NCBI RefSeq assembly: GCF_001552785.1 | Contig: NZ_KQ959516.1 | Coordinates: 151,853-215,852 of the forward strand | DNA from: Atopobium deltae | GTDB lineage: Bacteria > Actinomycetota > Coriobacteriia > Coriobacteriales > Atopobiaceae | Length of the DNA stretch: 64,000 bases | Reading direction: 5' to 3' | Part shown: in pieces, positions 27,273 to 50,158 of the stretch | Position numbering within the stretch: the first letter of the stretch is position 1 | How the letters are laid out: every line of letters begins with the position of its first letter | The notes under the pieces: model-generated | What the model saw: the letters and a program-made list of their open reading frames with translations, nothing else | Database searches by the model: none | Told to the model about the DNA's origin: nothing | Translations under genes and position numbers: made by a program

Positions 27273-27295
27273 GGATCTCATTGATACCGTAAAGA

Positions 27296-27510
27296 TGAGC
27301 GGGATCGAAATTTTCGGTCCCGCTCTACTTTCACTCTATAATGCGTTTATAAACACGCGGCATTGCATCTAGAACGGCCATAAAAAATATCCTAAAAGGC
27401 ATAGTAAAAGCGTATGAGAATTACGCCAACGGTATATTTTTTACCGTTGGCGTAAGCTGGTATTATAAGCTGTATTTTACTGAATTCAATATGATTTCAA
27501 GCTGTAAAAA
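27296..27510. repeat. Dispersed repeat copy A (cassette deletion scar)
   Basis: 27296-27410 matches 48770-48884 without gaps (about 13 differences in 115 bp). 27405-27510 matches 49989-50095 (about 90 per cent). In copy A the halves are contiguous, joined at TAAAAG (27405-27410); in copy B they are separated by 1,110 bp holding two genes. Read on the - strand, copy A still encodes LLLCLLGYFLWPF and a stop, the C-terminus of the small membrane protein in copy B. It also contains a perfect 14-bp stem, 27421-27434 with 27442-27455. Confidence 0.9.
27297..27325. terminator. Hairpin at end of DUF3825-like gene
   Basis: GAGCGGGA (27297-27304) pairs perfectly with TCCCGCTC (27318-27325); inner CGAAA/TTTCG bases extend the stem. 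The tail TACTTTCACTC is only weakly T-rich. It is part of repeat copy A. Confidence 0.55.
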
Positions 27511-27586: not shown

Positions 27587-29338
27587 CTACTGTTGCTTTT
27601 TACGCCCAAAAGCATAACCAGCGGCACTGACGCCGACAGCGCTGACGCCAGCTAACGTAAGTACTGAAGCCTGCAGCACGAGTGAAGCATCGCCCGTCTT
27701 AGGAAGTTTCTTTGCAAGCTGCTTGCTCGGCTTTGTGGGCTTTGCAGGAACTGGCTGAGGTGTCGGTTGGGCCGCGGGATTTGGTGCGGGTGGCGCTGGG
27801 GGCGTAGGTGGCACAGCTTTTTTCTTAACCGTAACCGTTGCTTTAGCCGTAGCGCGAGCGCCAGCGCTGTCAGTCAGTGTGTAGGTAATTTCGTAGGCGC
27901 CAGGTTTGGTTGTGTCGAAGTTGCCCTTCTCGATAACTACCTGATCATGCAGGTTGTCACCGTCTTCGGCGTCGGAAGCCTTGGTAATAAGGCTCTTTAG
28001 GTCAAGGGTGTCACCCTGTACGATGGTCGCGTTTTTAACTTCGAGCACAGGAGGCATGGTCCATTGGCCGTAGACCTCAAACTTCGGGTGCGTCACGACG
28101 CTGTCCTTAGTAAAGGCCGTGCCTGTGCCGTCGGGCTTCAGATTCCAGCCGACGCAGACCTTGCCATCGGAAGCTGCGGGCACTGTGGGCAATTCTTTTT
28201 GTAAGCACGTTGTCGCAGCTCCTTCGCCTACGCAATTGTTGGCTAGGGATTTTTTGTAGTAGATGGGCAGCGTGGCAACTTTTTTACGTGGATTGTCTGG
28301 GTGGTTCAAAATAAAGGTGACCTGTGGAATGCGTGCATCAAGGGTCATCACAAAGCAACTGGTACTCTTAAATTTCTCGAAGGTGTTGATGTGATCAACT
28401 TCATCTTTCCACCGGCGCAAGTACCCGTAGTTATGGTAGGGCGTGATGCGCGTATACGTTTTGCCTTTGTAAGTAAAGGTTGCACGCAGAGGCACGTAAC
28501 CTTCGTCACACAGACCCAAAAACTCCTGAGGGGTTGGTGTTGTGGGATTGCTATCAGCAGAAATCTGCGTGATCACATAGTCCTTCCCCGCTTTGTATTT
28601 TGGATTCAAGCCAGTAGCCTTATCGCCATTCATCACAAAGATGTCTTTGGCGACCTCTTTGTTTTTGGCCCAAATGATGTTCACGATGTCCATATGAAAG
28701 CGAAGAGCGCAGTAGGGCTTGGTGGTCGTACCGTCATAGATGGCCTCAAGACCCTCGCCATCCATATCCTTCTTTCCGTTAATCATCAAAAAGTCCTCGG
28801 TCTTCTCGCCATAGCCAGAGCCAATGTTGCTCAGCCATGCATAATAGCCAGCGGGCAAGGTCGAGGTATCGATCTTGATACGGTATTTTTTATTCTTTTT
28901 GAGACCAAGAATGAATTTGGAGCCGCTTTCTCTAAAGTTGATGCCGTGGACATTGCCAGTGCCAAACTTTATCGAGGGGTTATAGATGCCCTTGTCGGTC
29001 TTAATCAGGTTTCCCTGCTCGTCATAGATGTGAAACGCGATGTTTTTCCACACCTCAGCAACGGGTTTACTCCAAATCGAACCCAGTACATGCGCAGTTC
29101 TGTTCACGCTAATCGTATCGAGGGGACTACGAAAAATATCTTCTTTACCGCCGTCGAGCTCCCGAAGAAACATCTCTGGCAGGATATCGAGGACAAATTC
29201 GTCATCGGGAATGTCAACGTGGTCGGGCACCTGCGGATCGTCGGCGCGCGCCTGCGATAAGGGCAGCGCAAGGCAAACCAACACCACGACAAACGTTGCC
29301 GCTATAAAAAGGGCAAACTTCTTGTAAGCATTTTTCAT
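27587..29338 (-). CDS. LPXTG cell-wall-anchored surface protein
   Basis: A 583-aa secreted protein, sortase-anchored to peptidoglycan. Start ATG 29336-29338 is chosen (GGGAGA about 10 nt upstream) because it gives a clean signal peptide: KNAYKK, then FALFIAATFVVVLVCLALPL, cleaved near ARA-DD. An N-terminal adhesin-like region of about 300 residues has no family I recognise. An InlB B-repeat-like segment follows (VATLPIYYKK; DGKVCVGWNLKPDGTGTAF; VYGQW) near residues 360-430. Then comes a DUF5011/Ig-like domain (ATIVQGDTLDLKSLI; GAYEITYTLTDSAG), a Pro-rich wall spanner, LPKTGD, a hydrophobic helix and the basic tail GRKKQQ. Two decayed relatives lie at 17.4 and 20.2 kb. Confidence 0.9.
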   Translation of the reverse strand: MKNAYKKFALFIAATFVVVLVCLALPLSQARADDPQVPDHVDIPDDEFVLDILPEMFLRELDGGKEDIFRSPLDTISVNRTAHVLGSIWSKPVAEVWKNIAFHIYDEQGNLIKTDKGIYNPSIKFGTGNVHGINFRESGSKFILGLKKNKKYRIKIDTSTLPAGYYAWLSNIGSGYGEKTEDFLMINGKKDMDGEGLEAIYDGTTTKPYCALRFHMDIVNIIWAKNKEVAKDIFVMNGDKATGLNPKYKAGKDYVITQISADSNPTTPTPQEFLGLCDEGYVPLRATFTYKGKTYTRITPYHNYGYLRRWKDEVDHINTFEKFKSTSCFVMTLDARIPQVTFILNHPDNPRKKVATLPIYYKKSLANNCVGEGAATTCLQKELPTVPAASDGKVCVGWNLKPDGTGTAFTKDSVVTHPKFEVYGQWTMPPVLEVKNATIVQGDTLDLKSLITKASDAEDGDNLHDQVVIEKGNFDTTKPGAYEITYTLTDSAGARATAKATVTVKKKAVPPTPPAPPAPNPAAQPTPQPVPAKPTKPSKQLAKKLPKTGDASLVLQASVLTLAGVSAVGVSAAGYAFGRKKQQ

Positions 29339-29530
29339 CTGCGAATCATCTCCCATGTCGGATCCAATAAGCCCATGCTTACAAAAAGATTACCCTCCCC
29401 AGCTCATTTGAAGAAGAGGGGGTATCAAAAAAATCCATATAATAGGTCAATGGCCCAAAAATAGGCGCAAATGGTCGAGAAAGCGGGTTGATCGCGGCTG
29501 GGACTAAGCCTCGAGGAGCCTACAGTTCGC

Positions 29531-48664: not shown

Positions 48665-48769
48665 TTTTCTAGCATACGTTTTCTTGGGTGGTATGCAAAC
48701 TGCTTACCACAAACAACAGACTTTTCTAGGGGATATTTATTGCGTGTATCCCAAAACTACAGTCACAGC

Positions 48770-48884
48770 TGAGCGGGACCGAAATTTTCGACCCCGCTCT
48801 GCTTTCACTCTATAGTACGTTTATAAACATGCACCGTTGCATCTAAAACGGCCAGAAGAAATATCCTAAAAGGCATAGTAAAAG
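48770..48884. repeat. Dispersed repeat copy B, left half
   Basis: Matches 27296-27410 over 115 bp without gaps (about 89 per cent). It contains the hairpin GAGCGGG (48771-48777) / CCCGCTC (48793-48799), a probable terminator for the - strand cassette, and the last codons of the small membrane protein. It ends at TAAAAG (48879-48884). Confidence 0.9.
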
Positions 48885-49184
48885 TGATAATAGGTCAATA
48901 ATGACAAATGCTACGTACCATCTAAATGGCTGCTTTAATCCCGTTTCGTTAAACCAAGGGCGCGGCAATAGTACTACATAGCAGAAGATCGACCATATAA
49001 TGCCCTTAAGCAATGTATTTTCAAACTCCAGCGAAATGAAGTGTACTCCCATCATCCTAATCAGTTCAAGTAAAAGCGCACCCATTGCAAGCAGTGTCAC
49101 CGTATAATAGACGTACTTATACAGTTTGCTGTTATAGATGTCATTCATCTCGCGCGGCAAGACATCATCAGTATGTTGTGACAT
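48843..49184 (-). CDS. Small membrane protein, putative immunity protein of the cassette
   Basis: A 113-aa protein with three hydrophobic segments: YYTVTLLAMGALLLELIRMM, LLKGIIWSIFCYVVLLPRPW and WYVAFVIIDLLSLLLCLLGY. GGAGGAG is upstream of ATG 49182-49184. It overlaps the secreted-protein gene by 17 nt, so it is translationally coupled. I recognise no family. Its size, topology and coupling to a secreted protein are those of a bacteriocin immunity protein, which is inference only. Its C-terminus (LLLCLLGYFFWPF) persists as a remnant at 27.4 kb. Confidence 0.7.
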   Translation of the reverse strand: MSQHTDDVLPREMNDIYNSKLYKYVYYTVTLLAMGALLLELIRMMGVHFISLEFENTLLKGIIWSIFCYVVLLPRPWFNETGLKQPFRWYVAFVIIDLLSLLLCLLGYFFWPF

Positions 49185-49836
49185 TTATTGTCTCCTCCAC
49201 TGTGAGATAGACGGGTTTTCCCCAACGAATATATTTAAGTCTTTTGGTTTTTTGCGTGAGCTTCAGACCATGATTCGATTGATTGGGAATTCTATTATGA
49301 AGTGCATTTAGGATATCTGCGATTTTCCCACTAACCTTTCCAGCTATTCTCGTTGCTGGGAAGAACGATAGAATCACTCCAATCACAGTTGCCACAGTAG
49401 CCGCAATACCAATTGCGTCTCGTATAGATTTATAGGAGACATATTTATACGAGATTTTGCCTGAGGATCTGGTGGCAAAATACGACCCACCGTCCTCACT
49501 TGAGGCGGTCTGTATCTCATCAAGAGAAATCGTTTTTCCTGTTATGGAAGAATACAGTGTACGAGCTTTTTTATCGTAGGAAAAGAATGATTTTTCACCA
49601 GTTGCAGTATTGGTGACTGTAACGTTTCTATGGTGATCAGTATTAGCAATTGTAATCTTAGAGAGTTGTTTGTCTTGAACAACTTCAAAAGAATCATTTG
49701 AAACTTGGCGTACGCTTACAGAAGAACCGTTAGCATCAACAGTAGTTTGTGCATACGCACCACAGGGAATAGAAGAAAATACCAACACAGCCGATAAAGC
49801 TCCTGAAATAATAGTACGTACTGTTTTTGGACTCAT
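49168..49836 (-). CDS. Secreted protein, putative bacteriocin/toxin precursor
   Basis: A 222-aa exported protein. ATG 49834-49836 has AAAGGAGG 7 nt upstream; earlier in-frame codons to 49881 lack a site. The signal peptide is TVRTIISGALSAVLVFSSIP with cleavage probably after GAYA. The middle is rich in Thr/Ser/Val beta strands (QLSKITIANTDHHRNVTVTN; GKTISLDEIQ). A hydrophobic segment, DAIGIAATVATVIGVILSFF, near residues 140-160 is followed by a basic region. It recalls large secreted bacteriocins such as geobacillin-26-type precursors, but I cannot prove homology. The DNA is more AT-rich than the flanking genes. Confidence 0.65.
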   Translation of the reverse strand: MSPKTVRTIISGALSAVLVFSSIPCGAYAQTTVDANGSSVSVRQVSNDSFEVVQDKQLSKITIANTDHHRNVTVTNTATGEKSFFSYDKKARTLYSSITGKTISLDEIQTASSEDGGSYFATRSSGKISYKYVSYKSIRDAIGIAATVATVIGVILSFFPATRIAGKVSGKIADILNALHNRIPNQSNHGLKLTQKTKRLKYIRWGKPVYLTVEETINVTTY

Positions 49837-49969
49837 GATGAGCCTCCTTTGATACGCTTTTAATAGAAATTGGTGGAGCAAAGGTAGAGCTAGGGTAGAA
49901 AAGTTTCACGTACCCCCTTTCTTTCGTGTGTTGGATTCTCCTTTCGTCTCGTGGTTTTTAACTTGCTTT

Positions 49970-49999
49970 AAAAATACGCTTTTTCATATAAAAGCGTAT
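49970..49999 (-). terminator. Intrinsic terminator/attenuator in cassette leader
   Basis: On the - strand, ATACGCTTTT (49990-49999) pairs perfectly with AAAAGCGTAT (49974-49983) around a 6-nt loop, and TTTTT follows. It lies between the candidate promoter and the secreted-protein gene, so it could attenuate cassette transcription. Confidence 0.7.
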
Positions 50000-50095
50000 G
50001 AGAATTACGCCAACGGTATATTTTTTACCGCAGGCGTAAGCTGGTATTATAAACTGTATATTAACTGAATTCAGTATGATTTCAAGCTATAAAAA
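49989..50095. repeat. Dispersed repeat copy B, right half
   Basis: Matches 27405-27510 (about 90 per cent, one 1-bp gap). It starts with TAAAAG (49989-49994). It contains the hairpin TTACGCCAACGGTA (50005-50018) / TACCGCAGGCGTAA (50026-50039), perfect in copy A and with two mismatches here, and the candidate cassette promoter. Confidence 0.9.
50046..50085 (-). promoter_or_regulatory. Candidate promoter of the secreted-protein cassette
   Basis: Two overlapping options on the - strand. One is TTGAAA (50080-50085), 16 nt, TAATAT (50058-50063). The other is CTGAAT (50069-50074), 17 nt, TATAAT (50046-50051). Both give a leader of about 200 nt containing two hairpins. Confidence 0.45.
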
Positions 50096-50120: not shown

Positions 50121-50158
50121 AAAAAAAGCAGACGCCCCGCGCTTTGCGGGACGTCTGT
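50121..50158 (-). terminator. Rho-independent terminator after rplQ
   Basis: AGACGCCCCGC (50130-50140) and GCGGGACGTCT (50146-50156) form an 11-bp stem (one G-U on the - strand RNA), followed on the - strand by seven T. It ends the ribosomal supercluster. Confidence 0.92.

Follow-up and report, generated by a model that had tools for sequence, protein, structure and literature searches.

Two overlapping genes in a 64,000-nucleotide stretch of the Atopobium deltae genome (hereafter the window), one encoding an exported protein (P0001) and the other a small membrane protein (P0002), probably make up a bacteriocin cassette from a family that had not been named before, a reading to which we give a probability of about 0.77. 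Toxin and immunity roles had been proposed for the pair in an original prediction made from the DNA letters and their open reading frames (ORFs), and the comparative analysis described here supports them; antibacterial activity and immunity are what we infer from it, so this support is of a genomic kind. The cassette and its two genes are as follows:

48767 to 50095, minus strand: complete cassette, from the leader and promoter region through the toxin and immunity genes to the 3′ palindrome, both ends of which are common to a collapsed second copy.
49168 to 49836, minus strand: exported protein P0001, 222 amino acids, the proposed bacteriocin precursor, identified from its ORF, ribosome-binding site (RBS), relatives and structure model.
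48843 to 49184, minus strand: three-helix membrane protein P0002, 113 amino acids, the proposed immunity protein, identified from its ORF, RBS and hydropathy.

The ORF of P0001 runs from an ATG at 49836 to a stop at 49168 and that of P0002 from an ATG at 49184 to a stop at 48843; both were present where they had been predicted, with the predicted overlap of 17 nt, and each is preceded by a good RBS (AAAGGAGG for P0001 and GGAGGAG for P0002). The gene order on the minus strand is rpoA, rplQ, the pair, ecfA, ecfT and truA. In both of the other genomes of the genus that we compared, rplQ is followed directly by ecfA and the cassette is absent from that site. The GC content of the cassette is 39.5% compared with 52.6% for the window, within the lowest 0.2% of segments of the same size. 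The earlier description of an AT-rich pair interrupting rplQ and ecfA was thus accurate.

Using the window protein and then growing profiles, we searched 397 genomes of the order, representing 123 genera, and found relatives of P0001 in 10 genomes from five genera. The resulting family has 11 members, which are 20–30% identical to the window protein. Eight toxin genes are intact (the window gene, those at loci L003, L004, L008, L009, L010 and L011, and the divergent L037) and three are missing their 5′ part (L002 on A. deltae contig C5, L012 and L013). By inspection, an export signal is present in all eight intact members, with a twin-arginine motif in five (L003, L004, L010, L011 and L037) and of the Sec type in the other three, including the window protein; the signals of two members gave weak matches to TIGR01409. 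The C-terminal part measures 98–106 residues in the members keeping the full domain, and a C-terminal tyrosine is found in seven of the eight intact members, the exception being L037, and in all three relics. Weak matches at L014–L021 and L023 were lost with a better profile and were not counted, and the marginal matches in genomes G277 and G368 were likewise not counted as members.

Beyond the order, a phylum-wide sample of 296 genomes returned only the members already known, no relative was found on the plasmids or in the viral contigs searched, and scans of genome contigs with the protein and alignment A1 gave no confirmed relative. As the original prediction had stated, neither protein can be placed with confidence in a named family: Pfam, NCBIfam, PHROGs and PADLOC gave no confident assignment, the Pfam matches being far below the cut-offs and PADLOC giving none, and a weak match of P0001 to PHROG 9547 (E 0.009) spans the signal and N-terminal part only. 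Judged by sequence, the family appears to be so far unnamed and, as far as seen, restricted to one order within the Actinomycetota. When the literature was searched for bacteriocins together with names of groups, among them Coriobacteriia and Eggerthella, no paper devoted to the topic came up.

The first line of evidence for the bacteriocin reading is the constancy of the pairing. A partner ORF follows on the same strand, from −65 to +29 nt from the toxin stop, at all 11 loci (8/8 intact and 3/3 truncated). These partners are small ORFs with two to five hydrophobic helices, and hydropathy gives three for P0002, as had been predicted for the membrane protein beside the secreted gene. As a yardstick, among the 58 long ORFs of the window only the toxin gene and one other have a neighbour of this kind; the pairing is therefore not due to chance, because 11 members in 10 genomes all adjoin a small membrane ORF, compared with one other ORF of the 58. 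The partners are mostly unrelated in sequence and are less conserved than the exported protein; the only recognizably alike ones are those of the window and L002 (26% identity, E 5e-5) and the two tandem partners at L012 (31% identity to each other). By analogy, such divergence would fit immunity proteins matched to divergent toxins. Patchy presence (10/397 genomes), a GC content below that of the flanks at most family loci and empty sites in congeners are sequence features that count for the same reading, as do the export signals of all intact members and a C-terminal domain predicted to contain hydrophobic helices.

The second line of evidence is that partners outlive toxins, remaining intact behind stumps and, in one case, alone. 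On A. deltae contig C5 (L002), a 59-residue toxin stump is followed directly by an intact 115-amino-acid partner, and the toxin stump of G225 has behind it two tandem related three-helix partners (L012:857-1498, minus strand), which are candidate orphan immunity genes. In G170 the toxin lacks its signal and the partner ORF is kept. The congener G001 has a lone intact partner homologue of 105 amino acids (L060:1492-1809, plus strand) and no toxin match in its genome. A partner pseudogene with stops, also lacking a toxin match, lies behind an apparent rpsA on A. deltae contig C1 (L062:1486-1683, minus strand). An intact toxin gene without a partner, which the original prediction had named as an outcome that would speak against it, was not found among the family members in the 397 genomes; the reverse was found, namely partners without a functional toxin. 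Survival of the partner after toxin loss is the pattern expected if the partner guards against a toxin that neighbours still make, and such asymmetric decay is how bacteriocin-immunity pairs evolve.

Of the other explanations for the pairing, the one that survives best, although we consider it unlikely, is that the membrane partner serves to export, process or anchor a particular secreted surface protein, such as an adhesin. Constant adjacency and overlap would suit any obligate partnership, and the partners are membrane proteins by hydropathy. A helper should, however, be conserved with its client, yet the exported protein is the better conserved of the two, and the partners stay intact after the client has been destroyed and stand alone in a congener; moreover, Sec or Tat signals are already present on the exported protein, which carries no sorting signal.

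Several points weigh against the bacteriocin reading. No family member has a known activity, and profile, Protein Data Bank (PDB) and fold searches did not connect the family to a proven bacteriocin, either by sequence or by fold. The partners are predicted to be membrane proteins from their hydropathy, the start of the L037 partner is uncertain, and most partners are not demonstrably homologous, so their common immunity role is deduced from position. In favour of the reading, homology to a non-toxin family, the other outcome that had been named as adverse, was not found in Pfam, NCBIfam, PDB or profile searches.

To describe the proposed toxin, we combined inspection of the sequence, hydropathy and AlphaFold2 models, which were based on 7 to 11 sequences. 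Its parts, all encoded on the minus strand, are as follows:

49750 to 49836, minus strand: signal peptide, about residues 1–29, with cleavage expected after AYA (AYA/Q), recognized by inspection from a basic N-terminal end, a hydrophobic core and an AxA motif.
49525 to 49722, minus strand: N-terminal beta domain, about residues 39–104, made of strands with a predicted local distance difference test score (pLDDT) mostly of 80–91.
49171 to 49476, minus strand: C-terminal domain, residues 121–222, the proposed active part, delimited from alignment A5, the lengths and a separate model.
49303 to 49395, minus strand: two hydrophobic helices, residues 148–178, a proposed membrane-active hairpin, from the models and hydropathy.

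Residues 1–37 have low pLDDT, and the linker at residues 107–124 is disordered in the model made on the family alignment (mean pLDDT 71). When modelled alone, the C-terminal domain reached a pLDDT of 82 and showed a strand, three helices, two of them hydrophobic, and a long beta hairpin, the hydrophobic helices at 148–178 being followed by the hairpin at 190–221; the domain is therefore predicted to fold on its own. The sole cysteine, C25, lies inside the signal peptide, leaving the mature protein free of cysteine. The signal peptide and beta-rich middle of the original prediction are borne out by sequence and model, and so is its hydrophobic segment, seen at about residues 140–178. The whole model has no significant fold match in the PDB, and a sequence search of the PDB was also empty. 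For the C-terminal domain alone, the nearest topology was that of ribosomal protein eL31 (Z up to 6.8, rmsd about 3.2–4 Å over about 80 residues), a likeness below the tool's telling level and without sequence support, from which we therefore draw no function and which we treat as a common arrangement.

The kind of system proposed here is known, and we compared the pair with several bacteriocins. SdpC and SdpI of Bacillus consist of a Sec-exported precursor of about 200 amino acids with a hydrophobic toxin part and of a membrane immunity protein. The A. deltae pair resembles them in Sec export, a hydrophobic part and a membrane partner, but P0002 is much smaller than SdpI. The defining feature of the SdpC family is a cysteine pair in the mature toxin together with sdpAB-type neighbours. 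We rejected membership of P0001, which has no NCBIfam match and no cysteine in its mature form and whose neighbours are rplQ and ecfA, without SdpA- or SdpB-like genes; membership of this family, which the original prediction had listed for checking, is contradicted by the missing match and the cysteine-free mature protein. Closticin 574 and others are bacteriocins cut from the C-terminal end of a larger Sec precursor, with an active part of about 80–100 residues; a precursor with a C-terminal active part is likewise proposed for P0001, whose cleavage is suggested by the disordered linker only.

In layout, a secreted protein of 220–245 amino acids with an adjacent membrane protein matches the dysgalacticin and geobacillin-26 loci, a likeness that speaks for the bacteriocin reading. 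Dysgalacticin is a protein of 220 amino acids with a Sec leader that damages membranes, and the gene beside it encodes the membrane immunity factor DysI (PMC8308785). Together with streptococcin A-M57 it represents the large heat-labile bacteriocins of streptococci, which share with the A. deltae pair a Sec precursor of about 220 amino acids and an adjoining gene for a membrane-associated immunity protein, a likeness of layout by description (PMC8308785). They differ in being plasmid-borne in streptococci, and some members of the A. deltae toxin family have twin-arginine signals instead.

The geobacillin-26 family (geobacillin 26, alicyclobacillin 24) comprises secreted proteins of about 240 amino acids, similar in size to P0001, with proven narrow-spectrum killing (PMC13176240); alicyclobacillin 24, a member by the NF035925 profile, kills relatives and acts at the membrane (PMC13176240). 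At all three loci of this family that we examined, a small hydrophobic ORF lies directly downstream (62 amino acids and unannotated, 54 amino acids and 131 amino acids):

L030, 30951 to 31139, minus strand: hydrophobic ORF beside a geobacillin-26 family gene.
L038, 2772 to 2936, plus strand: hydrophobic ORF beside a geobacillin-26 family gene.
L039, 2728 to 3123, plus strand: hydrophobic ORF beside a geobacillin-26 family gene.

These ORFs are candidate immunity genes of that family. The ORF beside alicyclobacillin 24 is missing from the gene table of the record, and the paper makes no mention of immunity (PMC13176240). None of eight members of the A. deltae family matched the NF035925 profile at E 10 or better (NCBIfam cut-off 40 bits; alicyclobacillin 24, the positive control, scored 123.6 bits), and a profile comparison between the two families aligned only the signal peptides and was not significant. 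With the signal peptides removed, hhalign gave a score of 19.1 compared with a maximum of 15.2 in 40 column shuffles, at a probability of 1% and with three geobacillin-26 sequences only, which makes an N-terminal beta domain common to both families a lead and not a result. The geobacillin-26 proteins have a single transmembrane helix about 20 residues from the C-terminal end, whereas P0001 has its hydrophobic helices at 148–178, followed by the long hairpin. Lacking both the profile match and a helix at the C-terminal end, P0001 is not supported as a member; of the relation for which the original prediction had suggested a search, kinship was not demonstrated and the likeness of locus layout was.

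From these comparisons and models we propose a mechanism. The precursor would be exported by Sec in A. deltae or by Tat in several relatives and may be cleaved within the disordered linker, which bears an arginine in most family members. The hydrophobic helices of the C-terminal domain, of about 102 residues, would then enter or disturb the membrane of competing relatives, and the small membrane protein would block insertion of the toxin in the producer, giving self-protection.

The limits of the cassette follow from a second, collapsed copy and a palindrome. The following features belong to the ends of the unit and its surroundings:

27293 to 27510, minus strand: collapsed second cassette copy, in which the 3′ palindrome and the end of the immunity gene are joined to the toxin leader, found by blastn with the cassette.
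48771 to 48799, no strand assigned: 29-bp near-perfect palindrome at the 3′ end of the cassette (a terminator or end structure), found by a genome-wide search.
49837 to 50095, minus strand: leader and promoter region of the cassette, the right part of which is kept in the collapsed copy.
49974 to 50039, minus strand: two RNA hairpins with UUUUUAAA after the second (attenuator-like), from an RNA fold of the leader.
50129 to 50157, minus strand: terminator of the rplQ operon, a 12-bp stem with a T-run that sets the cassette apart from the operon.

The collapsed copy lies 21 kb from the intact cassette and keeps only its two ends, which blastn aligned as pieces of 118 and 112 columns (88% and 93% identity, E 3e-40 and 6e-43). 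Its junction falls at an imperfect 11-bp repeat, CATA(G)TAAAAG, which is found at both break points, and the interior has been lost. The copy adjoins a gene for an LPKTG-type surface protein (27587-29356, minus strand). The palindrome occurs at three sites in the 1.45-Mb genome (window 48771-48799, window 27297-27325 and L002 1058-1090), each time closing a cassette copy or relic at its 3′ end (intact, collapsed and C5, respectively); it may be more than a terminator because the window copy has no clear T-run. Together, the palindrome and the common right end define the unit as 48767-50095, in close agreement with the limits of 48770-50095 given in the original prediction.

The genome contains several copies or scars, two with both ends in common; together with a palindrome found only at cassette ends and an empty site in congeners, this could also be taken to mean that the pair acts chiefly as a selfish, mobile addiction cassette, which inserts beside terminators and is kept because losing the partner does harm, while it brings little competitive benefit. 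We consider this very improbable. We saw no transposase, terminal inverted repeat or target-site duplication at the cassette or the collapsed copy, repeats and duplications having been sought by eye; the copies would be accounted for equally well by mobility and by duplication followed by decay inside the genome. Recent hopping is not shown, the sequence of the C5 copy having diverged, and other species have no obvious common cassette ends. We hold as doubtful the more specific proposal of a new family of Sec- or Tat-exported bacteriocins, seen so far in a single order of Actinomycetota, whose compact 1.3-kb toxin-immunity cassette would move from one intergenic site to another with no transposase of its own, leaving collapsed scars and orphan immunity genes in its wake.

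Since the strong terminator at 50157-50129 closes the rplQ operon, the pair probably has its own transcription start. A promoter-like TTGAAA-16-TAATAT is present at 50085-50058, but the promoter scan performed no better than with shuffled sequences. The leader is about 260 nt long, and its predicted RNA fold (−31.4 kcal/mol, z −3.9) was more stable than that of any of 200 shuffles; the hairpins, with UUUUUAAA after the second, suggest attenuation. The first hairpin is a perfect palindrome in the collapsed copy. A 57-codon ORF starting with GTG (window 49736-49909, minus strand) has a strong RBS-like stretch (AAAGGGGG) and runs across the start of the toxin gene in a different frame; it may be a translated leader peptide or a product of chance.

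That the exported protein is instead an effector against an animal host, or a signalling protein, seems to us most improbable: members of the order often live on animals, but no tool result favours the idea, which leaves partner-only survival, the two tandem partners and partner diversification unexplained, and a scattered distribution that skips congeners is what inter-bacterial toxins typically show.

The reading of the pair as a bacteriocin cassette stands, strengthened by the evolutionary evidence; what is new is the family, the host group and the frequent twin-arginine signals. If the protein kills as predicted, it would give a first handle on protein weapons in this order of Actinomycetota. 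Unrelated immunity partners on related toxins would provide a natural set in which to study how small membrane proteins neutralize membrane-active toxins. Folded export is unusual for bacteriocins, and it is what the twin-arginine signals of several members would imply for some of these proteins.
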